Source: a virus
IMG/VR virus record: IMGVR_UViG_3300024528_000168
Coordinates: 1 to 35,828 of that record
Strand: one strand, 5' to 3'
Length of the DNA: 35,828 bases
Each line of letters begins with the position of its first letter. The first letter of the stretch is position 1. Under the pieces are notes generated by a model, which was given only the letters and a program-made list of their open reading frames with translations, made no database searches and was not told the origin of the DNA. Shown here piece by piece: positions 345 to 35,828 of this stretch. The translations under genes were made by a program, and so were the position numbers.

Positions 345-719
345 ATGGCTAAGACCCTTACTGCCACTGATCGATCGGCCCTGATCAGGTTGGCCTCGAC
401 TATGGAGAAGGGTTCAGTCGAGCGTAGGGCGATCTTGGCTGGGGTCAGGCAGGCAGGAGGCCGTTACAACGAAAGGGATGTCGAGGACATGGAGCCGGAT
501 ACGGCCCTAGACATGCTGGATGACCTGACGACTCAGGCCGGTCGGAAGGCTCACGAGTATGTGAGGCATTACCAACTGGCTCTCCGTGAAGCCGAGGAGA
601 ATCTCCGGGATCTGACGAAGGCGTGGGACAAGTGGGACTGGCAAACCCTCGCCAAGTTCAACGTCGTCACCGAAGACGAAGCTGACTTCGCCCGTGAAGT
701 CCTGGCCAGCTACACCTGA
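345..719 (+). CDS. Small phage protein with N-terminal RLAS-ERRAIL motif
   Basis: 124 residues. ATG with GGAG at 333-336, eight bases upstream. Residues 13-33 carry a motif (LIRLAS, GS, ERRAILAG) that is shared almost residue for residue with the next gene and, more loosely, with the reverse-strand gene at 34571. The rest is different: acidic (EDMEPDTALDMLDDL) and then a charged helical stretch (about residues 65-100, rich in Glu, Arg, Lys and Trp) with no signal peptide or membrane segment. I do not recognise the family. Similar N-terminal peptides are, to my memory, common on uncharacterised proteins of large phages, so it could be a sorting or assembly tag with a variable cargo. Start and coding status are secure; function is unknown. 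Confidence 0.75.
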   Translation: MAKTLTATDRSALIRLASTMEKGSVERRAILAGVRQAGGRYNERDVEDMEPDTALDMLDDLTTQAGRKAHEYVRHYQLALREAEENLRDLTKAWDKWDWQTLAKFNVVTEDEADFAREVLASYT

Positions 720-783: not shown

Positions 784-1254
784 ATGGCGAAGACGCTCAC
801 CGCTGCCGACCGTAAAGCCCTCATTCGACTTGCTTCCTCTATGGAGGCGGGATCACAGGAACGCCGTGCGATTCTTGCAGGATTAACCAAGACCGCAGGA
901 GGCAGGGATGTGGTCTTGGAGGAGATGGTCGTCGGTGACCACCCCGAGGAAAATGAGGGTGTCAGGATGGTGCGGGTGACAGTCGAACTGGACAAGCGGG
1001 GTCGCCCGAGTGGTTTCTACGCCAAGGTCGCCCCCTACATCCGCTTCAACGCTGCCCGTGGAGATGAGCCTCCCTTTATGATGGAGTCTCATCGTTTCGG
1101 GGGTCAGGTCCGACCCTCGATCTTTCTGATTGAAGCCACCCGGTTCGGAGCCAAGGCCCTTCAACGTGCCGTGGACAAGGCCAAGCATGACCCCGAAACC
1201 AAACGTCTCATCGAGAATGCCAAAAATCAGGTCAGTCGCGGCGCGAAGTGGTGA
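784..1254 (+). CDS. Small phage protein with N-terminal RLAS-ERRAIL motif (second)
   Basis: 156 residues, ATG with GGAG at 772-775. Residues 1-34 match the preceding protein closely (MAKTLTA start, LIRLAS at 13-18, ERRAILAG at 26-33), although the codons differ at many synonymous sites. Selection has thus kept the peptide rather than the DNA. The remainder is unrelated to the neighbour: a beta-type stretch (VRMVRVTVELDKRG, about 60-73), a Phe-rich middle and a basic helical C-terminus (ALQRAVDKAKHD onwards). The MVR beta strand loosely resembles one in the reverse-strand protein at 34571-34089. No known enzyme motif, signal peptide or membrane segment is visible. Function unknown; possibly a virion or assembly factor. 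Confidence 0.75.
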   Translation: MAKTLTAADRKALIRLASSMEAGSQERRAILAGLTKTAGGRDVVLEEMVVGDHPEENEGVRMVRVTVELDKRGRPSGFYAKVAPYIRFNAARGDEPPFMMESHRFGGQVRPSIFLIEATRFGAKALQRAVDKAKHDPETKRLIENAKNQVSRGAKW

Positions 1255-17280: not shown

Positions 17281-20200
17281 GTGGGCTTCGATCTAAACGG
17301 CTATGTGCTTCGGCCCGCAAGGGCAGCGACGGGGAATGCTTCATCCACGGACGAGGCAACCACGGGCGTTGATCGGGATCACATTGACCCGGCCACGATG
17401 ACAACCCTCGGCTACACAGCCGTTCCAACGAATCCCGTCGAGCCTTACGCTGACATGTACCGGGCTGCGGTGTTGCTCCAACCGACAGGACGCGCCTCCA
17501 AGCGTGAATACTGCCTGTTCGCTGCCACCACAGGCTCATTAAGCACCATTGAGGATTCAGCGTTCACGCTTCTGGGTGCGGCAAGCACCGTAAGCCCAAT
17601 CCCCGATGACCTCCCCGTAGACGGTGGCACCTTCAACGACGGGACACTCAGCTTCTACGTCCGCGACCCGAACTCGCGGGACATTTCCTCGGTCACTTCC
17701 ATCGTGATCACAAAAGGAGGTGCGAGTCCTGCAACGCTGGTTGCAGTTGTCGCGTCCTTTGATCCCCTGAGTGGCCTGGCGACCATCACCGACCCCGGCC
17801 TGGCAGGTGGGTTCTCCCTTGAACGAGGCGATGGTATCATTGGTTCTTACTACGTTCTCGCGGGTGTTTCTTTCTGGTGGACCCGCAACGACCCTGACGA
17901 TGGGATCACGCGCTTTGGGTGGGACGGCCTTGCACAGAAGTGGTTGCCGCTCAAGGGAGCCACGCCAAGAAATCTAGGACCGACCGACCCTGACGAGACG
18001 TACAAGCTGACTCCGCCTCCGACTCGCTTCGTGGTCGGTGACACGCTGCCGGGTGCTCCGGGTTCTCCTGACTCGTATGCGTTGGTTCGTGTGGGCCTCT
18101 ATCCCGACGCAGGATCAGCCCCTCTGGAGATTCGGGTCGTCACCGATACGACGGTCAATGCAGGGTGGGATGGTGGAACGGGCAACGCCATCGTGGGCGT
18201 CACCAATGGCATCCTGGTGCTCAACCCGGCCTTTGCCTCTGCCGAAGCGGGACGCGACCTCTGGTACAACGCTGAAACCTTCGTCGTCGATGCAGACGGG
18301 AACATGGGGGCCGTCGCAGGGCTTCCCACCACGGACAGCCAAGGCTTCCCTGTCCTGTCTCCTGTACCGGGAGCAACGGAGCGGCCCTTCCTACGGATCG
18401 GCAACCGCCAATATCTGACGCCGATTGCAGTTGCGACCGACAGTGCTCTCGTTGCCCCCACCGCCATCACCGCTGGTCAGTTCTACTGGAGCCGTTCAAC
18501 AGGAAAGATCGTTCTCTCGGATGCAGATATCAATCGGTGTACGCCAGGAGCGGTCGGCTACGATGTCGCCTACCTCGGAGCACGTTTATGGTGTGACGGT
18601 GTGGCGTTGTCCACACAGCCTGTCCCGATCCGTGCGCCAAGCGCAGTTGTGGATTCAAACGGTGCCCTTCTGGACGGGAATCCCACTACGGTAAAGACCT
18701 CCTCTGGGGATCTGTACGTCCAGAAAGCCATTTGCCTGCCCCCACCGGGAGTGAGCGGGGTGTCATGGGTGCCTGACGGGTCTGGGAAGGCTCCAAGCCT
18801 TGTCTCTGACCCACAGACGCGCCCCAACGGGTCTGGGCTGGTACGACAGGTGCTCGCTGAAGCAGGCGATACGTTCTTCTTCTCGGGAGCCGCAGACGCA
18901 AGCGGGGGCGGCTATGCCTACGAGAACGTCGATGTGGTCGAGTACGACGGCGATCTTCCGAACCTCAAGATCAAGGTGCCCAAGAACGCTGTAGCGGTGT
19001 CCCGTATGGAACCGGACCCCTACCCGGCTCCAGTCCCGGACCACGCCTCTCGAATCAAGTTCCGACCACGGCCCGTCAAGAAGGATGCGCTGTATTTCCG
19101 ACAGACGATGGTGATCCCCTCGACCTACTCGGAAGGGGCCACCCTTTACACGCGCTTTGGTGAGCCATTCACTCTGGCAGGCACCGAAACCATCCGGTTC
19201 GTACTCAACGCGGTCCTCTACGAGTGGGATGCGACCACGCTGGGTGCGGGTGACTTCACTGCACAGGAGATCGCTGACTCGTTGCTCAACGACTCGACAC
19301 CAGGGCTACCGGCTGGCAGCACAGGGGTTGAGCGCGGTCGTGTGTGGTTGACGGACACAAGCGCGACCAACATTGAGATCGTTTGGAACGCCGATCAGAC
19401 GGACCTCTCTGGCCACGCGGTCTTGGGCCTATTGCCCGGTTGGAAGATCGTTCCAGGCAACGACAGCTTCCGATGGCTCCCCGACAACGGAGCGGCGTTG
19501 GGTGTGTTCCGAAGCCCGGTGAACCTAGACCGGAGCGAGACAACACCCGATATCCGAGCCAAGAGCGCATTCGACGACGTGATCTTGACCGATGACATTT
19601 CGGTGGTCCCGTTCGTCACGGTGAATCAACCCCCTCTGGAGGACATTCCCGGCTACGCGGACGGCTCCCATTTCCGCGTACAACTGGGCTTGTTGGCCAT
19701 CAACCTCAAGAACTACCAGACGACGTTTGGGATCGGCCTCAAGTACGAGTGGGAGAACAACCGTTTCTCATGGATTGCGGACGGTGTGACCAACGCCACC
19801 TCGGTCCCGTACCCGTCGCCTGTACTCCAGTTGACTGACACGGGTGTGCTGCCCGAAACGGTGTCCTCGGATGCGATGCTGAACGCTGCCTTCGGCCTTG
19901 ATCTCAAAGAAGCAACAGGCACGGCGTACACGGAACTGATCCGAGGCACTGATTTCTTGATGCCCGGTGACGGAAACCCTGGCCAAGCTCTCCGCATTGA
20001 CGTTGCCGGTGGGATCAAGGCACAGGGAGGCAAAGGGATGTTCGCGGCGGGTCAGTTCGTTTTCACTGACCCCAACGTGAACCAAGCGAGCCTCTTTGCA
20101 GCGGTCGAGGTCGGGTATCTGCTCCATATCCTCGGTGGTGACGCGCAAGGCGTCTACACGATCGAGAGCAAAGCACAGCCCTCGGACACAGAACTGACGG

Positions 20201-23200
20201 TAACCCCCGCGTTTCCGTTCGGGTCTACGACGGCGCAGTGGCGGATCTACGAGGCGCAGACGAGAAGCGTCCTCGACTCCACGTTGCTTGCGGACGTGAA
20301 GCAGGGGATCACGAACCACTTGCCGGAGGAGCCTTTTAAGATCCGGCTGCTCACTTCGTCCGGTGTCCTCCCGGCGACGATCACGGTGAATCCCGTGGAT
20401 GCCATCGCATCCAACCGTATTGTTCGGATGCGCTTCGGCCTCCCCTCGGGTTCCCCTGAAGCCGCTGTGAGCTACTTGGAGCGCGGTGTAGGCGCTGGAA
20501 CGGTCGCAGCCACAGGGCTTGTGCTCCCCACGTTGACCGACCCTCATGTGACCAACTCGGTGCCTGGTACGGCGTACTTCCAGATCCGCATTGGAGCCAA
20601 TGTCTTCGCGTCACCGGCCACGTTGACCATTGACCAGGGCGTTGCTCCGGTCGGTGGTGTGGATGTGAACGTGACCACGGGAGCCATCCTCATTGACTCC
20701 ACAGTGGTATCCGACCTGACCGGGAGCACGGTCTACTACGACCAATCGTTCCTCAGCCCGGCCCTTTTGGGTGCAGGCGCGTGTGAGATCAATGCAGCCA
20801 CCGGTCAAGTCAACCTGTCCGGTGCAGACGTGGCAGCGAATCCCGGTGCCACGCTCTACTTCGTGGAGCAAATGGTCACCGAGAACAACCTTGATGTGAC
20901 CACCTCCCCGGTGAACGGGAGCATCCTGTTCAACAAACCGCTGCGGGCGATGCAGGTTGTCGAGGTCAACTACTTCCAAGCCGACACCAATGGAGACAAG
21001 GCCCTTGACGACGATGGCAACACCATTGAGATCACGGAGTTCCTGCCTCTGACGGTGCGTCTGGAGGCGGCCCCGTCGGTCACGGGCACGACCTTTAGCT
21101 ACAACCCGACCGGGCGCACCCTGTCTGACAAGGTGGAGTCCTTTATATGGGTTGGCGTTGAGCTTCAGAACTTTGCCGGGGTCACGACAGCAAGCGCCGT
21201 CGCTGGGGTCATCACCCTTACGTCACCCGCCCCTCTCACGGATGCTGTGCAGATCAACTACGGCGTTCTGGAAGCGTTCGGCGGGGAGCAAGCGTACACA
21301 GTCAGCACGATTCCGGTGTACCGCAAGCCCTTTTGGCTGGACGTGCAACAGGACACGTTCACGTTGAAAACCAACCGGGCGGCTGATTTTCCGGTCGGGA
21401 GTCTGATCCTTCTGGGTCCAGCGCCCCTCTACATCGACACGGTGGCTTACGATGCAGGCGCAGATACAACCACCATCTCGGTGTTCCCGCCCCCTCAAGT
21501 CGAGGTAGGCAGCCGAGCCGTGGGACGTGACGCAGGACTGACCGTCTCCGACTTCCCGGTGTCTGTGGCCCGTGGTGGCGCAACGGGCTTCATGCCCAAC
21601 CTCAACACAGCGGTGACACCGCTCTTGCCTGCCGACAAAGGCCAGTTGCAGGTGGCCTTCTATGGCGACGTTCGCCAGTACACGAAAGCGAATCATCTCC
21701 TTGAGATTGGCGGTTACCCTTACATTATCGTGGGGGCCACACAATCGGAGGATGGCCGCAACACGGTCGTTGATCTAGCGACCCCGGTGTACCGGGAGCA
21801 TGACAACTCGGACATCGTGCGGGTGAGTGTGCGCCCCGTGTACGCCCCAAATCCCGTTGCATTTACAGGCATCGCCCCGTTTCTCCCCGATCAGGAGTAC
21901 GACCTGTTCCTACTGGGCCGCGTCAGTGGTGGGGTGGCGATCCCCGGCAAGCAGTTGATCGAGGGCGTTCACTACACTGTGGACACCAACACAGGCGGCG
22001 TGACCTTCCAGAGTCCGACACAGGGAGCGTTGCGGGCGGGTGAGTACCTGCACTTCCGCTACACAGGCTTAAACGAAGTGCGGCCTGAGATTGAGGACGG
22101 AGCGTTGCTCTACCCTTTCTACAAGGGTCGATACCTGCACCTAACGGCACCCTCGGTCGCAAACCGGGTCTTGGGAAGCACGCTGAAGGCGCAGTACGTC
22201 TACCGAGCGCCGGATTCGTTCTACTTCTCGGTGCTTCCTTTGGTGGCGTTCCTCCCCGAAGTCGAGAGCACGTCCAGTTCACAGGGCATTACACCCGTGA
22301 GCAGCGGAGCGGCGATTCCCTTTGGCGGATCTACGGACCTGAGCACACAGGGAGTCTTCGGGCTTCGTGGTAGCACCCAAGACCTCAAAGACCAAGACCG
22401 CGCTGCGCGGGCCTATCTCAGTCTGTTCAACGGAGTGGTGCTGGCTTTCGAGCAGGTGTTGGAGGCCATCGACGGGCGGGTGATTGGGGACCGGGACGGC
22501 AAGTTCCGATTCTTCATGGGTCGAGGCAAGCGGTACGCTCGTCCAGGCTGGGAGGATGAGATCACAGGGGATCTGGTCACCCGGCTCATTTGGCGAGGCA
22601 TCGTCAACGAGTGGGCAGAGGATTCTGCTTTTGATGGCTACTACAAGGTCGCGGATCCCGTGTTCGATCCCCTGACGGCGGAAGAAAAAGACCCGACTGA
22701 TCGGCCCGGTGAGACAGACGGCAAAACACCCAACCCGGACACGTTGAGCTACTTCACGGGCTTGCAGCGCAGCCGGGTCAAGAATGACATGGATGACAAG
22801 CTGTTGATCGGCTTTGGGCGTCCGCGTGGCTTGGCGGTGCTGTTCCCGCAGATCAATATCCCCGGTGTGTTCAAGCAGATGTGGGAGGCCCACCCGTATT
22901 CGCGGTTGTTCCCCGAGAAATCGAAGCACTTCACTCGGCTGTATCCTGGCCTAGAGTATGTGCCGGGGTCTGATCCTGGCTTCTACTCGTCAGGCCGCAA
23001 GCTGACGGCTCCCGGCCCTGAGCCGGGGGAGCAGACGGAACAGAAGATCAAGACCCGTGGTTCCACCATCGGGACGATCGTGAACCCGGCGTTGGGGGTC
23101 ATCACCAATGTGGTCGATGTCACCACGAATGATCGGTTTCCTCGCGCTCGTGTCTGGGCCTACTACCCGAACGGCAACGCTGACCTGGATGCTGCTTTAG

Positions 23201-26200
23201 GCACTTCCACAGTAGGATTTGCGACTCTGGTGGCGACACCATCGCCTCTGGGTGAGTTCCCTGTAGACCCGACGACGGGGTTCCCTGACACCACAGACCT
23301 GATCACGACCGCGAACCCCACGGGATCTCTGTTCTCATTGGAGTCGGGTGACGCCGATCTTTCGACCCCGGCCTTTGAAGCAGGGCAACAAGTCAACTAT
23401 GGGAAGCCCAACGACACGACCTACACCCTGACGGATTCCGCAGGGGATGGCATCTTCGTGGCAACGGTGCAGGCGGGGTGCGTGGTCACTCTAGGAGACA
23501 TCTCTGGCACCGAAAAGGCTGGGTCCGATGTGTTTTACGATGGGGTGACGCCACTACAAGACATCATCAGCGTAGACAACGGCTACGGCGATACTGTATT
23601 CGGCGTTCCGATTGTTGACTTCGGTGTGCTGGGGGCCATCGCAGATGTGATCCCAGGCGATCAAGACGACCTTCTCGCGATCACCGCTGCGCTGCCTGAC
23701 TACCGGATCCAGTTCGATCTCAAGGTGGGGAAGCGCACAGGCGAGTTCATCGACGCTTCCCTGGCCGTGAAGGAAGATGTGTTCCCGCTGCCTATGCAGA
23801 CGTGGTTGAACCAGAAGCCACCACAGCCGTTGACGTGCATCGAAGGCATGGTCGAGTTCGTCAACACGAACTCCGAGCCGGTGAAGCTCCCGTGTCTGTT
23901 GGGGCAAGACAAAGACGACTCGGGAGACAACCAGATCCCGTATCTCCGAAGCACGGACACCGAACTGGCTGTTCTTAGGCGCGTTGCGGCTAACCTGACG
24001 TTGCTGTTCGTGGATACGAGCATTGTGCCTCCGCATGACTGGCTCGCTGTGTACCCCGATGAGATCGTGGTCGAGGACGGAGAAATCCTGACCGCTGGTT
24101 ACTCCATCGGCCCCAACCGTGATCCCGCGACTCTCTACACGAGCACGGATTTGACCCCGGTGGCGACGGCTGGCTCCTACACGCCCAACTCTGGCGTGGG
24201 CGATGTCCGCGCAGGCGACCTTCTGTTCATGGAGACAGAACAGGCCGCTCCGATTCCGGCTGGGATCACAGGCATCTTGACGGTAGCGGCGGTAACGGGT
24301 TCGACCATCGAGGTGCCTCGGTTCGTGACCCCCACCGAATCGGCAACGATCGTCAAGCACACCATCGAGAACGCAGCGGTGGCCGTCAACGGTGGTGGCA
24401 TTGCGGGCGTGGGTGTCACGGAGACATTCAACCCTATCCCTCTGCCCCTCTACACCACGACGTTTGACTTCTCGACCGCTGGGTTCGTGTTGGACGACAA
24501 CGGCGGAGGCGTCCCGACAGGTCTGGGAGGGTACAACCAGTTTTTCGGCATAGGGGGCACCGGGAACACGCTGATCATTCGCATTTATGACGTGAATACG
24601 GGGGTCTTGGTAGAGGCGATTGCTTTCTCGGACCAAAGCCCTGCACCAAGTGTGTGGGGAACGGTGGTGGCTCCCGGTGGTGTGAACTTGTTCTCTCCGC
24701 CCACCGCCAACGGAAGCACGATCACGGTCGTGACTCTCGCTCCGATCTCCACGGTCGCCAATGACGGCACCCTGTACGACGTGACCATATCCGTCGATGC
24801 CTACACGACGGCAACGACGGATGCGATTACGGGATTGGGCGTCGGCTCCGCTACTGGGACGATCACCGCTGCGGTCGCATCGGATCGATTAACCTTCTCG
24901 GAAACCCTCAGCCTTGCCGACGCGGCTGACCGAGCCACAACCACAGCCACGGGCGCTGTGAACGTCGGAACGTCCCTTGCGGTGTGGGAGATTGAAGCAG
25001 GTGCGTCTCCGGGATGTACTGTCAACGCTCCCACCTCGGTGAACGATGGCGACCCCTTCACCTTCTTGGAAAGGCTTGTGGGAGTCATCCCTTACGTCGG
25101 CACGTTCACCCAAGCGTCTGTAGCCGGGGCGGGCAATGAAATCGGAACACTCCGTGCGATGTCCTGGGAAGCCTACGGCAACACGCCTTTGGATGCCTTG
25201 GACTTGTCTGGGATCAAGCTCGCAGCGGCGGCTTCCTCAAACGCAGGCGAATCCAGTCTGATCTTGGGCGGCACCGGCAGATGCCTCGATGCGAACTTGG
25301 TGGGTCGGGATCGGACGTGGATTCAAGACCTCACTGTAGCCACAGGGGCCACGGGGAACGTCGAGGCTGGGGATACCGTTGTGATCTACGAGGGGCCGAA
25401 CCCTGGTGATGCAGCGGTCAAAGCCGGGACGTACTTGGTCCGTCATGCGGTTCCGACCAACAACACAGCCTCGGACGGGACGGCTATTTTCCGTGTGAAC
25501 CCACAGGTCAATGCGGGTGCCAGCGAGAAGATCGACCTCTCATTCCCGAAGGTCAAGACATCGGATTTGGGTGCCTTGGAGATCGTGACCAGCCCCTTGA
25601 CCGCCATCACGACATCTCCCACAGGCCATGTCTTCACCCTCACGGGTCGGGTCTTCTTGATTCTCAAGGATCAGTATGCGACCTACGACTCGGGGACAAC
25701 GACGTGGACGGTAGACGGGTCTGCCGTCTATTCAGCGGACTACTCCAATGTGGCGGTAGACCCCCTCACAGGGAACGCCACGTTCACGATCTCTGGCAAC
25801 TACCTCGATGCGACCGGTGCCGTTCTCCTAGATACCGTCTTCTTCGCCGCTGCGGCGGCTGGCGTGAAGGTGTCTGGAATGACCCTCATGCCCTTGCGTC
25901 AGTTGAACGCCAACTTGCCGTTGAACAACACGGTCGGGTACAACCTCGCACCGGGAGGCACCGCTGCCATTGGAGGGATCGAGGAGATTCATCTAGGGTC
26001 TACCCTCACCGGGGGTGGGGATAAGACATTCGACACGAGCGGCGGTACCATCGTCCGCTCCACCGCTCCCCCAGTCCCCAACGAACTCGGAGTGGTCGTG
26101 GATGATGGCAATAGCAACACCGACTTCTACTCTGCGAGGGATACGGTCGTCTATCCAAGCGACCCCTCGGCGACACCAGCGACACCAAGTGGTGTCGCCA

Positions 26201-28056
26201 CCTCCATCAGCCTGTCTGAGTTGAACTCAACGGCGTGGAGGGACATTCACTTTGCTGTATTTCCGGTTGTTGTTGTCCCCGCGCTTCCAGCATTGGAGTG
26301 CCTGCTTCCAAGGGACCGGGTGTCTATCAGCACCGCCTTGACGGGAGGCGTAGGACGGTTCTACGCCTTGTCAGGGGTGTTCTTGGAGCCGTCGCTTCCT
26401 CTCCCAGTAGGGGATTTGGGCCAAGCCCTCCCACACGTCGTAGCCAACTCATACTCCTTGGCCACGACCAGCCAGATCGGTATGCGGAACTTCGATGACT
26501 TCAACACAGTTCCGGTTGGCGAGGAGATCATCGGCTTCGTGGTGAGGCGCATTCGACGGTTCCACAAGCAGAGCACCGATATCGTAGCGGGGCTGGACCC
26601 ACTTCGGTTTGCATACGAGATCAGGCGAGGTGAGGTGTCAGGCTATGTGCCTGGGACACGGACGTTTACCGCTGACACCGTGACCTACGGAGCGGCTACC
26701 AATCTCGGGTCATTCAGCAACGCCGATGTCAACATCAACTCCGGCGACTCCCTACGCATCCTTGATCCCACGACCCGCGCAGTCACGGACACCGTAGAAA
26801 TCCAACGGGTCACAGGTCCGACGACTCTCACGCTGAGGTCACCAGGGTTGACGGAGACGATTCCAGCGGGCGCTCTCTTTGAGGTCTACTTGGAGCAAGC
26901 CATCGTGCCTCAAGAGCAGTCGAATGAGCAGTTGCTCGATCTGATCACAGACAAGATGGTGTACGAACGGCGGGTGCCCTACACAACGCCCCCAGAGGAC
27001 GGTGGGTTCGTTGCTGCCGTCAATGAGATGCAGGACAGCGGTGTGTCTTCGTGGGCTGCGGAGGGGGCCGCTGAAGGGGATTACATCGTGGTGGACCCGG
27101 CTGGGGTTCTCTACGAAACCACCGAGAAGGGAGTGCGTCCATTTGGGGATCAGTCAGCCATCGAACGCGGTGCTGGACTGCCTTACGATGATGGCGCTCC
27201 GAGCAAGTTGGATGACAACCGAGGCTTCTACCAGATCACGTCAGTCGATGAGATTGCCAGTGGTGTGTTGGGGATCGACGGAGAGTCGCGGTTCTCTAAC
27301 GGGGATCCCTTCGGTGGAGACGGTGCGTCTGACTCTGAGTACGTCGTCTTGCCGACCATCCACGCTTCAGCCATCCCAGAGGGTCCAGACGAAGGGCAGC
27401 AAGACCTTCGTGTCACGGCGGGGCCAGTCGGAAGTTCCTATCTGGACCGGATAGCGCCCAACACGAACCGGAGCATCGAACCGTTCGCGTACCGGATCAT
27501 CCGACCCAACCCCGTGTTCTCTCGGGACGCAGTGGAGTTGGTGCTGTTTATGCGGGAACGGATGCTCTCATGGGTCGAGGCGTTGAGCACGTTCTACTCG
27601 CAGGGTGGTGACTATTACGTTTTTCAGCGTGATGACCACATCAAAGACGTGGGATCAAGCACCGATCCGACAGCGGGCCTTGGCGTGATTCACAACATTG
27701 CAGCCACGGGGTTGCAGGGTTTGGTGGGCGATACGCCGTTCGCCAACACATCGGACTGCCTCTCGGTTCTGGATCGTCGCTTCTGGGTGTTGGATTCCCG
27801 GCTAGACGCGCTTGGGTACACCGACTTCTCGGACGATGGTTTCAGTCAGCGTCCTGTGCTGCCTGATCTCATTGACGAGGTGTTGGACTTGGACGATCGT
27901 TTCCGGGACCAACGCTACGCATGGGTTTCGTTCCGAGCGAATCAACAGAGTGGTTCCATCCAAGCGGCCAAACGGGCTGTCTTCAGTCTGGATTCCCGTA
28001 TCCAGAAACAACGTGAGGCTATCGCTCGCCAGAAGGCGTTGGATGAGTCCTCTTGA
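17281..28056 (+). CDS. Giant baseplate/tail structural protein (3591 aa)
   Basis: One uninterrupted frame of 10,776 nt from a GTG with GAGG ten bases upstream. Mostly beta-rich, with Thr, Val, Gly, Asp and Pro high and many turn signals, consistent with strings of beta-sandwich domains. A distinct, more conserved-looking segment lies at about 1730-1880 (GDRDGKFRFFMGRGKRYA, WEDEITGDLV, MWEAHPYSRLFPEK, HFTRLYPGLEY). The last ~100 residues are helical and charged (DRRFWVLDSRLDALG, EVLDLDDRFRDQ, RAVFSLDSRIQKQREAIAR). No signal peptide, no peptidase or lysozyme motif noticed. It probably forms much of the baseplate body or proximal fibres. No separate gp25- or gpJ-like wedge gene is visible nearby, so this protein may take over wedge functions. 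Start and extent are certain; role is inferred from position and size. Confidence 0.75.
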   Translation: MGFDLNGYVLRPARAATGNASSTDEATTGVDRDHIDPATMTTLGYTAVPTNPVEPYADMYRAAVLLQPTGRASKREYCLFAATTGSLSTIEDSAFTLLGAASTVSPIPDDLPVDGGTFNDGTLSFYVRDPNSRDISSVTSIVITKGGASPATLVAVVASFDPLSGLATITDPGLAGGFSLERGDGIIGSYYVLAGVSFWWTRNDPDDGITRFGWDGLAQKWLPLKGATPRNLGPTDPDETYKLTPPPTRFVVGDTLPGAPGSPDSYALVRVGLYPDAGSAPLEIRVVTDTTVNAGWDGGTGNAIVGVTNGILVLNPAFASAEAGRDLWYNAETFVVDADGNMGAVAGLPTTDSQGFPVLSPVPGATERPFLRIGNRQYLTPIAVATDSALVAPTAITAGQFYWSRSTGKIVLSDADINRCTPGAVGYDVAYLGARLWCDGVALSTQPVPIRAPSAVVDSNGALLDGNPTTVKTSSGDLYVQKAICLPPPGVSGVSWVPDGSGKAPSLVSDPQTRPNGSGLVRQVLAEAGDTFFFSGAADASGGGYAYENVDVVEYDGDLPNLKIKVPKNAVAVSRMEPDPYPAPVPDHASRIKFRPRPVKKDALYFRQTMVIPSTYSEGATLYTRFGEPFTLAGTETIRFVLNAVLYEWDATTLGAGDFTAQEIADSLLNDSTPGLPAGSTGVERGRVWLTDTSATNIEIVWNADQTDLSGHAVLGLLPGWKIVPGNDSFRWLPDNGAALGVFRSPVNLDRSETTPDIRAKSAFDDVILTDDISVVPFVTVNQPPLEDIPGYADGSHFRVQLGLLAINLKNYQTTFGIGLKYEWENNRFSWIADGVTNATSVPYPSPVLQLTDTGVLPETVSSDAMLNAAFGLDLKEATGTAYTELIRGTDFLMPGDGNPGQALRIDVAGGIKAQGGKGMFAAGQFVFTDPNVNQASLFAAVEVGYLLHILGGDAQGVYTIESKAQPSDTELTVTPAFPFGSTTAQWRIYEAQTRSVLDSTLLADVKQGITNHLPEEPFKIRLLTSSGVLPATITVNPVDAIASNRIVRMRFGLPSGSPEAAVSYLERGVGAGTVAATGLVLPTLTDPHVTNSVPGTAYFQIRIGANVFASPATLTIDQGVAPVGGVDVNVTTGAILIDSTVVSDLTGSTVYYDQSFLSPALLGAGACEINAATGQVNLSGADVAANPGATLYFVEQMVTENNLDVTTSPVNGSILFNKPLRAMQVVEVNYFQADTNGDKALDDDGNTIEITEFLPLTVRLEAAPSVTGTTFSYNPTGRTLSDKVESFIWVGVELQNFAGVTTASAVAGVITLTSPAPLTDAVQINYGVLEAFGGEQAYTVSTIPVYRKPFWLDVQQDTFTLKTNRAADFPVGSLILLGPAPLYIDTVAYDAGADTTTISVFPPPQVEVGSRAVGRDAGLTVSDFPVSVARGGATGFMPNLNTAVTPLLPADKGQLQVAFYGDVRQYTKANHLLEIGGYPYIIVGATQSEDGRNTVVDLATPVYREHDNSDIVRVSVRPVYAPNPVAFTGIAPFLPDQEYDLFLLGRVSGGVAIPGKQLIEGVHYTVDTNTGGVTFQSPTQGALRAGEYLHFRYTGLNEVRPEIEDGALLYPFYKGRYLHLTAPSVANRVLGSTLKAQYVYRAPDSFYFSVLPLVAFLPEVESTSSSQGITPVSSGAAIPFGGSTDLSTQGVFGLRGSTQDLKDQDRAARAYLSLFNGVVLAFEQVLEAIDGRVIGDRDGKFRFFMGRGKRYARPGWEDEITGDLVTRLIWRGIVNEWAEDSAFDGYYKVADPVFDPLTAEEKDPTDRPGETDGKTPNPDTLSYFTGLQRSRVKNDMDDKLLIGFGRPRGLAVLFPQINIPGVFKQMWEAHPYSRLFPEKSKHFTRLYPGLEYVPGSDPGFYSSGRKLTAPGPEPGEQTEQKIKTRGSTIGTIVNPALGVITNVVDVTTNDRFPRARVWAYYPNGNADLDAALGTSTVGFATLVATPSPLGEFPVDPTTGFPDTTDLITTANPTGSLFSLESGDADLSTPAFEAGQQVNYGKPNDTTYTLTDSAGDGIFVATVQAGCVVTLGDISGTEKAGSDVFYDGVTPLQDIISVDNGYGDTVFGVPIVDFGVLGAIADVIPGDQDDLLAITAALPDYRIQFDLKVGKRTGEFIDASLAVKEDVFPLPMQTWLNQKPPQPLTCIEGMVEFVNTNSEPVKLPCLLGQDKDDSGDNQIPYLRSTDTELAVLRRVAANLTLLFVDTSIVPPHDWLAVYPDEIVVEDGEILTAGYSIGPNRDPATLYTSTDLTPVATAGSYTPNSGVGDVRAGDLLFMETEQAAPIPAGITGILTVAAVTGSTIEVPRFVTPTESATIVKHTIENAAVAVNGGGIAGVGVTETFNPIPLPLYTTTFDFSTAGFVLDDNGGGVPTGLGGYNQFFGIGGTGNTLIIRIYDVNTGVLVEAIAFSDQSPAPSVWGTVVAPGGVNLFSPPTANGSTITVVTLAPISTVANDGTLYDVTISVDAYTTATTDAITGLGVGSATGTITAAVASDRLTFSETLSLADAADRATTTATGAVNVGTSLAVWEIEAGASPGCTVNAPTSVNDGDPFTFLERLVGVIPYVGTFTQASVAGAGNEIGTLRAMSWEAYGNTPLDALDLSGIKLAAAASSNAGESSLILGGTGRCLDANLVGRDRTWIQDLTVATGATGNVEAGDTVVIYEGPNPGDAAVKAGTYLVRHAVPTNNTASDGTAIFRVNPQVNAGASEKIDLSFPKVKTSDLGALEIVTSPLTAITTSPTGHVFTLTGRVFLILKDQYATYDSGTTTWTVDGSAVYSADYSNVAVDPLTGNATFTISGNYLDATGAVLLDTVFFAAAAAGVKVSGMTLMPLRQLNANLPLNNTVGYNLAPGGTAAIGGIEEIHLGSTLTGGGDKTFDTSGGTIVRSTAPPVPNELGVVVDDGNSNTDFYSARDTVVYPSDPSATPATPSGVATSISLSELNSTAWRDIHFAVFPVVVVPALPALECLLPRDRVSISTALTGGVGRFYALSGVFLEPSLPLPVGDLGQALPHVVANSYSLATTSQIGMRNFDDFNTVPVGEEIIGFVVRRIRRFHKQSTDIVAGLDPLRFAYEIRRGEVSGYVPGTRTFTADTVTYGAATNLGSFSNADVNINSGDSLRILDPTTRAVTDTVEIQRVTGPTTLTLRSPGLTETIPAGALFEVYLEQAIVPQEQSNEQLLDLITDKMVYERRVPYTTPPEDGGFVAAVNEMQDSGVSSWAAEGAAEGDYIVVDPAGVLYETTEKGVRPFGDQSAIERGAGLPYDDGAPSKLDDNRGFYQITSVDEIASGVLGIDGESRFSNGDPFGGDGASDSEYVVLPTIHASAIPEGPDEGQQDLRVTAGPVGSSYLDRIAPNTNRSIEPFAYRIIRPNPVFSRDAVELVLFMRERMLSWVEALSTFYSQGGDYYVFQRDDHIKDVGSSTDPTAGLGVIHNIAATGLQGLVGDTPFANTSDCLSVLDRRFWVLDSRLDALGYTDFSDDGFSQRPVLPDLIDEVLDLDDRFRDQRYAWVSFRANQQSGSIQAAKRAVFSLDSRIQKQREAIARQKALDESS

Positions 28057-30895: not shown

Positions 30896-31690
30896 ATGCC
30901 ATCGTTTTCAGCCATCGACACATTCCGTGAAGGCCAGTGGAGAGTTTTCCGACAGTTCATTCTTGAGGAGCGTCGGGACGCGGGGGCACGGGAAGCCGTG
31001 ATCTTGGCGGAACTGCAACGCATCGGGAAGATTCGCATCTTGTATGGAACGGATGTAGAGACAGGCAAGGTCAGTCAAAGCCGGGTGGGCATTGTCATCG
31101 ACGGTAGCCCCAAATGTGCATTGGCGAAGCTCCTGTCAGCCTACATCGCACTCGGAGGCAACCCGTTCGATATCAGCATGTTCCTCTACCCCAACGACTC
31201 GGAGTGCCCGGACAACGGGTTCGCCTACCCCAAGGGCTTCTCCTACTCGTTGCAGGGGCAGGAAGCCGACTCGGACTCCAACATAGAGAAGTACAAACCC
31301 TCACGAATAGGCGGCACGCGAGAGACGCAGAGCGAGATCATCGCGTCGAACATGAGCTTGCTTCGGAGATGGTCGATTCAAGAGATGTACCAGAAGCGCA
31401 TCTTGATTGAGGAGCGCATTATCAAGCTCTCCGATCTTCACGAACAGTTGATGAATGAACGTGACCTGATTGCGGGGGCCACGTCTGCGGTGGGCATGAA
31501 AGCGATCTACTCAACCGACCGCTTCCAGAACAGCCATACCGTTCCGGTGTTGGTGTTCACCCTCGACTCGATTTACCACCAGGCCGACGCCGATGGTCGA
31601 GTTCCCGTCACGAACCCTGAAGGCGAGACTTTGGGTGAATTTCCGATGCTGATGTCGGACGGCCCTGGGGATGACAACAACGCCCTGTGA
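30896..31690 (+). CDS. Hypothetical baseplate-region protein
   Basis: 264 residues; the ATG lies one base after the stop of the 848-aa gene with GGGGAGG upstream, so it belongs to the same unit. N-terminus FREGQWRVFRQFILEERRDA, helical; then a mixed alpha/beta part (VGIVIDGSPKCALAKLLSAY), a stretch with Asp and Ser, a helical hairpin (about 165-200, YQKRILIEERIIKLSDLHEQ) and an acidic tail (MLMSDGPGDDNNAL). No signal peptide or membrane segment. I recognise no family. The next 143 nt hold no gene apart from a promoter-like motif, so it likely ends the long tail transcription unit. Confidence 0.65.
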   Translation: MPSFSAIDTFREGQWRVFRQFILEERRDAGAREAVILAELQRIGKIRILYGTDVETGKVSQSRVGIVIDGSPKCALAKLLSAYIALGGNPFDISMFLYPNDSECPDNGFAYPKGFSYSLQGQEADSDSNIEKYKPSRIGGTRETQSEIIASNMSLLRRWSIQEMYQKRILIEERIIKLSDLHEQLMNERDLIAGATSAVGMKAIYSTDRFQNSHTVPVLVFTLDSIYHQADADGRVPVTNPEGETLGEFPMLMSDGPGDDNNAL

Positions 31691-32339: not shown

Positions 32340-32531
32340 ATGCCTATTTACGAGTACCGTTGCGAGAAGTGCGACACCCAGTTTGAGCGCCTGCTTCGCC
32401 ATCGCGAGCGGGATGCTCCACAGCCATGCTCCAACGAGAAGTGCGACGGCCAACACGCCAAGAAGATGATCAGCCAGACATCGTTCGCCTTGAAGGGCGG
32501 GGGCTGGGCTTCCGACGGGTACTCGGGATGA
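32340..32531 (+). CDS. FmdB-type zinc ribbon protein
   Basis: 63 residues, ATG right after GAGGAGATC. The start MPIYEYRCEKCDTQFE is the signature of the FmdB/Zn-ribbon_8 family. Zinc ligands are C8 and C11, then C30 and C35; the second pair is spaced by four residues where the family usually has two. The C-terminus FALKGGGWASDGYSG also matches the family. Such proteins are regulators or zinc proteins of unclear role; phage versions are common but uncharacterised. The stop overlaps the next start (ATGA). A GT-repeat lies just upstream. Confidence 0.88.
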   Translation: MPIYEYRCEKCDTQFERLLRHRERDAPQPCSNEKCDGQHAKKMISQTSFALKGGGWASDGYSG

Positions 32532-32815
32532 GGTGGTTCTACTTCATCGTGACCTCCGTGGAAGGCGAAAACCGACTCTCCCTTCTGCCTCCGTGGATCA
32601 AACTGCCAAAGCGGCCCGTTGACGCCAACGACACGAACGGGGATCCCTTGACCCCGTGGTACGAGACAAAAGACCACCATGACGAGAAACACGTCCATGT
32701 CTATGCAGGGACTTTGGCCGAAGCGTTGCTCAAGGCACGCGGTAGGGTGGGGAATCTTGAACGCAGCACTGTCATCAACCAACGTGCTGACGTGATCAAC
32801 AGGAGCCAAGCATGA
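32528..32815 (+). CDS. Hypothetical protein
   Basis: 95 residues from the ATG at 32528, which overlaps the zinc ribbon stop by four bases (ATGA); an open frame extends upstream to 32426 but inside the previous gene, so that start is rejected. Begins with a beta strand (MRWFYFIVTSVEGENRLSLL) and has a His/Asp/Lys-rich centre (YETKDHHDEKHVHVYAG) that could bind metal, then a helix (LAEALLKARGRVGNLE). No family recognised. It overlaps the next gene by four bases as well, so it is translationally coupled with both neighbours and probably works with them. Confidence 0.7.
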   Translation: MRWFYFIVTSVEGENRLSLLPPWIKLPKRPVDANDTNGDPLTPWYETKDHHDEKHVHVYAGTLAEALLKARGRVGNLERSTVINQRADVINRSQA

Positions 32816-34023
32816 TCCCCACAGATGAAGAAATCTCCAAGGTGCAGACCAACCTCTCCAACATGCAGACGTGGAATGATCGGCTGTACGCCTACGGGAA
32901 TCCGAAGATCATCAATGCCTTCGCCCTGTTGGATCAATCGGACAACCAGGACCGAGGGCTAACGGACGTACTCAATCTCCTGGACGGTGCGTTTTGGGCC
33001 ATTGGTGGTGAGCTTGGCCCCATCGGTGCCATCGGTGCTAACGTGATGTGTGGCTTGGTAGCGGAATGGTCCAATACGGCACCTCCTGACATGAACAACG
33101 CCTTTTCTAGTCTTCTCTCCAGGTTTGAGGCAGCGAGCCTTGACGTAGACCGTCAACTTGCCGTCTACCACGAAGATCCCGCGACCTACTGGGACACGAC
33201 GTTCACCGCACACGGGGAAACCTGTACGCTAGGTGATTTAGCGACCATTGACTTCCCCTCCGAAGCCGATCCTGGATTTTACACGCTACTTGATCCAGCG
33301 GTTTTCGCCTTGGACCAGACGGTTTGGTCGATTCTACTGAACGCTTTTTGCTACAATGTGCGGTGGAGTCCTGACGTTCAGATCACGGGGGACATCACTT
33401 CGTGGCTTCAGATGTTTTACGCCCGGAATCTGTCTTACTGGTGTGCGTACTACCAACATCAGGACACGGGGGACTGCGGGGACTACACCTACTGGAACGT
33501 GACCGAACACAACGTGTCCTTCGGTGCGGGTCGGTACAACGACGGGCACATTTCCGAAGGAGCGTGTGCGTACTTGTTCATTGACTCCACCGACGGGACG
33601 GTGATCAACTCTCAGGGCCTCTACGAGCGAGCGTTCGTCTTCAACAATCTGGGACTGAGGACGCAATCGATCTACGAGTCGATGCAGCCCAGCCCGATTC
33701 TTGAGCACCTGGGCACCGAAGGTGTGACAGCGGCTCAGGCTGTCGGGACTACGGGTTGGTTCCGGTACATGAGAGCGAAGAAGGACGGCAAACCTCTCCT
33801 GAGCGATCTGGAGGAGAGGGTTGGCATCGAGGGTGTCAAGCAACTGATCCTGGATGCAGTCAAAGAGGATCCGACTTTACGGAGCAGTTTCCGCACTAGA
33901 CCCCACCAGACAATGGAGCGGGTTCTGGGTGTCATCGTCCCGGAGTTCGTGGAGTTCAATATCACCGTCGAGGGTCCACGTCGGCACGGTCTGGTGATCC
34001 CACTGGAGGACAGTGATGCGTGA
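32812..34023 (+). CDS. 403-aa protein with C-terminal NHLP-like domain
   Basis: 403 residues, start coupled to the previous stop (ATGA). Residues 1-325 form an all-in-one domain I cannot assign: helical and hydrophobic first (GLTDVLNLLDGAFWAIGGEL, IGAIGANVMCGLVAEW), then Trp/Tyr/Cys-rich (FYARNLSYWCAYYQHQDTGD) and ACAYLFIDSTDGTVINSQG. Residues about 338-399 match the pattern of the nitrile hydratase alpha-subunit-like leader domain (NHLP): ILDAVKEDPTLRSSF, a Pro-containing turn, VLGVIVPEFVEFNITVE, and HGLVIPLE. In RiPP precursors that domain is an N-terminal leader; here it is at the C-terminus and no Gly-Gly core follows. It may be a structural or binding module. No modifying enzyme gene (LanM, YcaO or radical SAM) is visible nearby. 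Confidence 0.7.
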   Translation: MIPTDEEISKVQTNLSNMQTWNDRLYAYGNPKIINAFALLDQSDNQDRGLTDVLNLLDGAFWAIGGELGPIGAIGANVMCGLVAEWSNTAPPDMNNAFSSLLSRFEAASLDVDRQLAVYHEDPATYWDTTFTAHGETCTLGDLATIDFPSEADPGFYTLLDPAVFALDQTVWSILLNAFCYNVRWSPDVQITGDITSWLQMFYARNLSYWCAYYQHQDTGDCGDYTYWNVTEHNVSFGAGRYNDGHISEGACAYLFIDSTDGTVINSQGLYERAFVFNNLGLRTQSIYESMQPSPILEHLGTEGVTAAQAVGTTGWFRYMRAKKDGKPLLSDLEERVGIEGVKQLILDAVKEDPTLRSSFRTRPHQTMERVLGVIVPEFVEFNITVEGPRRHGLVIPLEDSDA

Positions 34024-34088: not shown

Positions 34089-34571
34089 CTACATCGTGGA
34101 GATGGTGGTCCCCTCTCCGCGAGAAGCCAGGAAACGCTTGCCTTCGGCTTCCATGACCGCGACCGCTTCGACATAAGTTTTGACCGTCTCGTTCTGATGT
34201 CTTTGGCCGGAGTGGTTGATGTTCAATGTGTAGGGAGGCGCAAGAGCGTCCTCGACACGAAACGTCAGGTAGCTGGTCTCACCTGTGGCTTCACCCCATT
34301 CCGGGTAGGAAATGCGGACCATCCTTGCGTAGCCCCGTTGTCCTTTCTTCGCCCTCAATGGGAACAGGCCACCACGAATGGCCTCGACAAGCTCCTGGGG
34401 TTTCACCCTGCCCGCCAGACGAAGGGCCTGCTGCTTGTCCTTCTTGAAAACGTCCAGTTCGTCCCAGGTGTACGACCCTTCTTTCAGAACGTCGAGCAGG
34501 GCCTTTCGCTCTGTCGAGCCTTTGGGCATCGAGGCGGCGAGTCGGATCATCTTGGAGCGGAGGTCGGACAT
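34089..34571 (-). CDS. Small phage protein with N-terminal RLAS-ERKALL motif (reverse strand)
   Basis: 160 residues, ATG at 34571 with GGAG just upstream. Residues 8-29 (MIRLAASMPKGSTERKALLD and onward) are a third version of the motif found at the start of the genes at 345 and 784, here on the opposite strand and 33 kb away. After it comes a helical part (WDELDVFKKDKQQALRLAG), a beta region beginning YARMVRISYPEWGEA, loosely like the 784 product, and a helical C-terminal end rich in Glu and Ala. No known domain. The gene has its own promoter-like motif and is divergent from the 34752 gene. Function unknown; clearly coding. Confidence 0.7.
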   Translation of the reverse strand: MSDLRSKMIRLAASMPKGSTERKALLDVLKEGSYTWDELDVFKKDKQQALRLAGRVKPQELVEAIRGGLFPLRAKKGQRGYARMVRISYPEWGEATGETSYLTFRVEDALAPPYTLNINHSGQRHQNETVKTYVEAVAVMEAEGKRFLASRGEGTTISTM

Positions 34572-35327: not shown

Positions 35328-35510
35328 CTACCGTTCGCGGCCACGCCAAGCGCGTTGCACGACAGAAGTGACCTTCTTGATCTCGTCCGCCGCGTCCTCC
35401 AACTCGTACTTCTCCAAGATTTCTACCAGGGCGGACAGAAGGTCGTCAGGGTTGTACTTGTTGAACGCTTGTTTGTGGCGGAGCGCCACGCGGTTGGGTG
35501 ATGGTTTCAT
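35328..35510 (-). CDS. Small helical protein
   Basis: 60 residues from the ATG at 35510, overlapping the stop of the upstream reverse-strand gene by four bases (ATGA). A longer frame to 35600 was rejected for that reason. Basic start (MKPSPNRVALRHKQAFNKY) followed by an acidic helix (DDLLSALVEILEKYELEDAA) and a basic end (RAWRGRER). No family recognised. The coupling suggests it is made with the preceding gene product. Confidence 0.5.
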   Translation of the reverse strand: MKPSPNRVALRHKQAFNKYNPDDLLSALVEILEKYELEDAADEIKKVTSVVQRAWRGRER

Positions 35511-35812
35511 TGGTCTGCAATCCAGTCGAGCACGCTTTGGTGATTGATCGCCAGCCGTGCCATGTAAATCTGCGAGTAGTTCTTGGTTCGGCTTGTCCAC
35601 GTCATCGTGACCCGATCCTTCCAGTCATGGGCGTTCGTGGACCGGATGGGTCCAAGATCACCGAAGCCAACGCCGTTGAGTCCCGTGCCGCTGGTGTTTG
35701 ATTCCAGCGTCAGGATCTTACCTGTGGCTTCATCGTAGTCGAGGACCAGCCAGCTATGGCCCTTGGGCCACGTTGTGAAGCTCTGAATCAAGTACACGCC
35801 ATCCTTGGGCAC
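35507..35812 (-). CDS. C-terminal half of a hydrolase-like protein; possibly broken
   Basis: 101 residues from a GTG at 35812, with AAGG just before it. The text VYLIQSFTTWPKGHSWLVLD, then LESNTSGTGLNGVGFGDLGP, resembles the His-containing second half of a papain-like (NlpC/P60 or CHAP type) fold, where a buried His follows a Gly and faces a strand. The Cys half that should precede it is missing: a TAA stands in frame at 35819-35821, nine bases upstream of the GTG. Either this is a small stand-alone protein or the 3' part of a frameshifted gene whose first part lies outside the window. The edge is 16 bases away, so this cannot be decided here. Confidence 0.45.
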   Translation of the reverse strand: MPKDGVYLIQSFTTWPKGHSWLVLDYDEATGKILTLESNTSGTGLNGVGFGDLGPIRSTNAHDWKDRVTMTWTSRTKNYSQIYMARLAINHQSVLDWIADQ

Positions 35813-35828
35813 TGCGCCTTAACGGCGT

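Follow-up and report, generated by a model that had tools for sequence, protein, structure and literature searches.

Why would a phage protein end in an NHLP domain? The NHLP domain is described as a leader at the N-terminus of natural-product precursors. A sequence-only reading of this DNA had placed one at the other end of a 403-residue phage product and had proposed for it a role as a docking module, as a decoy for host RiPP enzymes or as a tail part. An NHLP fold that closes a protein, lacks the leader signals and is kept in two distantly related phages would show that the module is used outside natural-product biosynthesis. The domain would also offer a direct test of the folded NHLP half acting alone, and it is a starting point for an accessory gene of the phage which has no other annotation. 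No NHLP protein of a phage turned up in the literature searched.

The phage and the surroundings of the gene

The window analysed here is the whole of IMG/VR virus record IMGVR_UViG_3300024528_000168 (positions 1-35,828; 35,828 nt, or 35.8 kb). For its proteins of 3591, 1362, 848 and 264 aa, relatives come from large phages, namely LR745208.1, with 485 kb, and numerous IMG/VR records of up to 618 kb. The 3591-aa protein (17281-28056, plus strand) has long homologues in the related large phages and no Pfam match. The 1362-aa protein has a weaker relative in Tunturi 5, a jumbo myovirus of an acidobacterium (PMC11924767). In view of these relatives, the window is probably part of the genome of a large phage with a contractile tail.

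The 403-aa product is encoded on the plus strand by an open reading frame at 32812..34023, as first described. Upstream of it lie a conserved phage marker gene for the 264-aa protein (30896..31690, plus strand), which served to find 80 related loci, and a gene for an FmdB-like zinc ribbon (32340..32531, plus strand; PF09723, E 7e-11). Homologues of the FmdB-like gene are found near the marker gene in the relatives, so this neighbourhood is conserved. On the other side, about 1.5 kb away, the minus strand carries the C-terminal part of a putative endolysin, cut near the end of the record (35507..35828). It is 72% identical to a relative (L107 6430-7281) which matches PF01471 with an E-value of 1e-16, and the full-length relatives have a peptidoglycan-binding domain. 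The NHLP gene of the window thus sits between the FmdB gene and the fragment of the putative endolysin.

Two other features of this DNA were observed. Two adjacent plus-strand ORFs (1316-2017 and 2040-2711) both match Endonuclease_1 (PF04231), the second over only 38 positions near the end of the profile, which suggests a duplicated copy that has decayed or diverged. In addition, a segment of about 35 residues, of the type M.KxLTASDRKALIRLASSLPKGSxERRAILAGL, opens several otherwise unlike ORFs in this phage group (window 345-719 and 784-1254, plus strand, and 34089-34571, minus strand; also L007 at about 17002, L021, L025 and L031), and one L021 frame has it at both ends. This segment has the look of a protein tag that the ORFs share, perhaps with a part in packaging or maturation.

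The C-terminal domain

The NCBIfam scan of the 403-aa protein returned a single family, TIGR03793 (leader_NHLP), which matches residues 343-400 (33838..34011, plus strand) with an E-value of 1.3e-4 and 21.7 bits; when the last 79 residues are searched alone, the match improves to 5.3e-6 and 26.2 bits. The E-values are significant, as the sequence-only reading had led one to expect, but both scores are below the curated cut-off of the family (50.9 bits), so the hit in the window by itself is suggestive. The only full-length homologue that was found, encoded at 88330-89571 of a 205-kb phage (G006), matches the same family independently at its own C-terminus and more strongly (39.7-43 bits, E 3.3e-10), also under the cut-off. 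Apart from this homologue, the best scores in six frames of 50 phage records related to the window, some 5.2 Mb in all, are 13-15 bits; the weak hits in G003, G022 and G054 (11-15 bits) were treated as background, and a separate weak hit in G003, which runs antisense within the giant ORF, was rejected.

Searches that start from the phage domains lead back to NHLP proteins. The 59-residue domain of G006 matched five of 72,556 plasmids, two at genes annotated as 'NHLP leader peptide family RiPP precursor' and three at unannotated places. A profile of the two phage domains, which are 23% identical, was compared with 177,635 PDB sequences: NHLP leader structures take ranks 1 and 2 with a marginal E-value of 0.06, and nitrile hydratase alpha subunits rank behind them (E about 1).

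An AlphaFold2 model of residues 324-403, built together with the domain of the G006 homologue, has a pLDDT of 76.7 and shows helices at 7-29, 32-39 and 41-49 and strands at 60-63 and 69-72. It is a three-helix bundle followed by a beta hairpin, which ends in HGLVIPL; this is the helix-helix-strand-strand arrangement on which the NHLP assignment had been staked beforehand. Of 350,542 PDB chains, the two that match best are the NMR structures of the proteusins DprE2 and MprE7. They head the Foldseek matches (probabilities 0.95 and 0.84, TM-scores 0.60 and 0.54, with E-values above 0.1) and the VIA-align matches (Z-scores of 5.3 and 5.2, the next being 2.5 for a borosin precursor). Since the E-values are this high and the Z-scores modest, it is the ranking, together with its concordance with the sequence results, that gives the structural support, and no single score carries it. 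The best viral fold matches in BFVD, A0A6J5QI59 (probability 0.96) and A0A6J5SC77 (0.69), are unannotated proteins of 125 and 123 aa from uncultured Caudovirales, compared by predicted fold alone; they are possible further phage NHLP-like proteins.

An NHLP-type domain at the C-terminus of this phage protein is thus confirmed. A chance resemblance to the profile, which a score under the cut-off could allow, is already disfavoured and hardly credible given the stronger independent match in G006, the first places of NHLP structures in both the profile and the structural ranking, and the plasmid matches at annotated NHLP genes.

The N-terminal part and the distribution of the gene

The N-terminal part (residues 1-325; 32812..33786, plus strand) belongs to no known family: Pfam and PHROG scans and a single-sequence PDB search of the 403-aa protein gave no match, in agreement with its earlier description as an unassigned front. 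Neither DUF7217 (E 0.12-0.19) nor phrog_14671 (E 0.09) reaches significance as a match. The N-terminal part is acidic (40 D/E for 15 K/R) and has a Gly-rich hydrophobic stretch at about residues 66-86, which is kept in the G006 homologue. This stretch prompted the idea of a pore-forming or toxin-like fold, which has no Pfam backing and is not claimed. The full-length AlphaFold2 model has a pLDDT of 46.8, with most of the N-terminal part below 50; it matches membrane and apolipoprotein helices, which is uninformative, and the N-terminal part is probably helical, a prediction of low confidence.

Few relatives could be found. The 403-aa protein, used as a single query against viral and genome contigs, returned none, an alignment query retrieved G006 alone, and tblastn against the GenBank phages (50,697 records) gave chance matches only. 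In about 80 related records, of which many are short, a profile built from both proteins detected no other full-length member. The search for homologues of the front part yielded one full-length protein, with its own C-terminal NHLP match. The N-terminal parts of the two are 26% identical (E 1.2e-18), and the NHLP fold, retained at this distance, appears to be maintained, as judged from these two full-length members.

The closest relative of the window that was found, G001 (75% identity in the 264-aa marker), has in the equivalent order the marker, a 147-aa homologue, an FmdB-like region, a MazG-like ORF (named by eye) and a putative endolysin, and the NHLP gene is absent from it. The marker of G006 is 56% identical to that of the window, and in this phage the NHLP gene has a different genomic location, where a Baseplate_J protein and a weak match to a sheath initiator lie upstream of it and the gene of a 340-aa protein comes directly after it. 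The gene set downstream of the G006 marker differs (L007 13375-18000) and includes a transglycosylase-like ORF, named by eye; because of this difference, the site downstream of the marker gene looks like a variable accessory slot. In G045, whose marker is 32% identical to that of the window, the homologue is reduced to its first 42 codons or so. This stub stands just before a copy of the 340-aa gene, 82% identical to that of G006, and a putative endolysin lies downstream of it. In two phages, then, a member of this family of about 340 aa (L107 4860-6008; L008 2724-3746; L108 4992-5900) adjoins the NHLP gene or what remains of it, and a third phage also has one; the identity is 76-82% between otherwise distant phages. 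The G006 and G045 proteins have no known family and no relative among GenBank phages or plasmids.

G006 and G045 are otherwise distant yet share the cassette, which suggests that it moves between phages. From the gene content of these genomes, the NHLP gene is accessory or dispensable, because it is missing in the close relative G001 and is a stub in G045. It is found next to tail or baseplate genes or to putative endolysin genes, with details that vary between phages. The proposal of a tail part is weakly consistent with such a neighbourhood, but a dispensable gene fits it less well.

Possible roles and comparison with known NHLP systems

A proteusin leader consists of two halves: one is folded and akin to nitrile hydratase, the other is disordered, carries an LXXXXL motif and precedes the cleavage site (PMC2887384, PMC10858898, PMC12455567). 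The two halves can be separated (PMC10858898). The phage domain stops where the proteusin folded half ends. The LXXXXL recognition motif, the GG cleavage site and the CxxCSC motif of nitrile hydratase are absent from both the window protein and its G006 homologue, and the window domain has no Cys. The domain closes the protein instead of opening it: about 5 residues follow it in the window, with no Cys/Ser/Thr-rich core, so the earlier remark that there is no core peptide was correct. In G006 it is followed by about 22 strongly basic (Lys/Arg-rich), amphipathic residues, FKKFKKHKKGWLQRLLGWIKR. The NHLP exporter (TIGR03796), radical-SAM (PF04055) and LanC-like (PF05147) families have no match in the four phage records scanned for them, each of which may be a fragment. 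Because the enzyme-contact motif, the cleavage site and the core are all missing, the phage protein does not count as a RiPP leader of the usual kind.

A fold at the wrong end of the protein, without recognition or cleavage signals, is probably not part of a peptide precursor but a module borrowed for docking or structure. The explanation which we hold to be the best, and which we rate as somewhat probable, is that of an accessory phage protein whose novel, probably helical N-terminal part is joined to a structured NHLP half that serves at the C-terminus as a module for protein binding or stabilisation. The 325 N-terminal residues would be the working part, and the three-helix bundle with its hairpin would be reused for protein-protein docking or for stabilisation. 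The partner would probably be a component of the virion, the tail or the cell envelope, and the gene would most likely be expressed late. Docking through a folded surface has a precedent, by analogy, in known NHLP leaders such as MprE7 (PMC12455567). Of the functions first proposed, the docking module is the one that fits best, as an inferred role.

The domain could be a mere stabiliser or oligomeriser of the protein, that is, a cap which helps the N-terminal part to fold or oligomerise and has no outside partner. The weak conservation of the domain sequence (23%), with the profile match kept in both phages, is compatible with such a cap, and no conserved surface patch emerges from the two sequences. 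However, known NHLP leaders are monomeric binding modules (PMC10858898, PMC12455567) and no sign of self-association is seen here, which leaves the cap a doubtful candidate.

We consider it improbable that the protein is a decoy or inhibitor of host RiPP-modifying enzymes or of an NHLP-type ABC exporter, which would block or hijack the peptide weapons of the host. The fold is indeed that of the natural ligand, and the surface of helix alpha-1, which in MprE7 contacts the RRE domain of a YcaO enzyme (PMC12455567), could persist. But in the YcaO system that was tested both this surface and LXXXXL are required (PMC12455567), and LXXXXL is missing in both phage copies; no RiPP gene of the three families above is seen in the phage fragments. 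The decoy of the sequence-only reading thus finds no positive evidence. The broader idea of a captured NHLP fold which acts as a C-terminal tag and engages host RiPP-modifying or NHLP-export machinery, either as a decoy or so that the phage protein is modified or exported, seems equally improbable. Still less credit can be given to an unusual RiPP-type precursor, in which the protein itself is modified or the basic G006 tail after the domain is a released peptide: the window protein ends about 5 residues past the domain, GG and a Cys/Ser/Thr-rich core are lacking, and the phage fragments have no exporter, radical-SAM or LanC-like gene.

The protein-binding or stabilising module that we favour can be compared with three known systems. 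The borosin precursor and binding domain (SonA, 7lts) has a weakly similar helix bundle (Z 2.5); it differs in that the phage protein has no core peptide and that no methyltransferase family is recognised in its N-terminal part, a Pfam search of which gave no family at all (the record being a fragment). The proposed comparison with the nitrile hydratase alpha subunit holds for the helical region, which is distantly similar (4zgj, Z 2.1; profile E about 1), and fails for the CxxCSC metal site and the catalytic insert, which the phage domain does not have. Unlike the NHLP and proteusin leaders (TIGR03793; 8tb1 MprE7, 9cjx DprE2), the domain is phage-encoded, C-terminal rather than N-terminal, joined to an unrelated part of 325 residues and devoid of LXXXXL, GG and core; what it shares with them is the predicted fold of three helices and a hairpin, and a sequence pattern which closes in a strand of the lvlP type.
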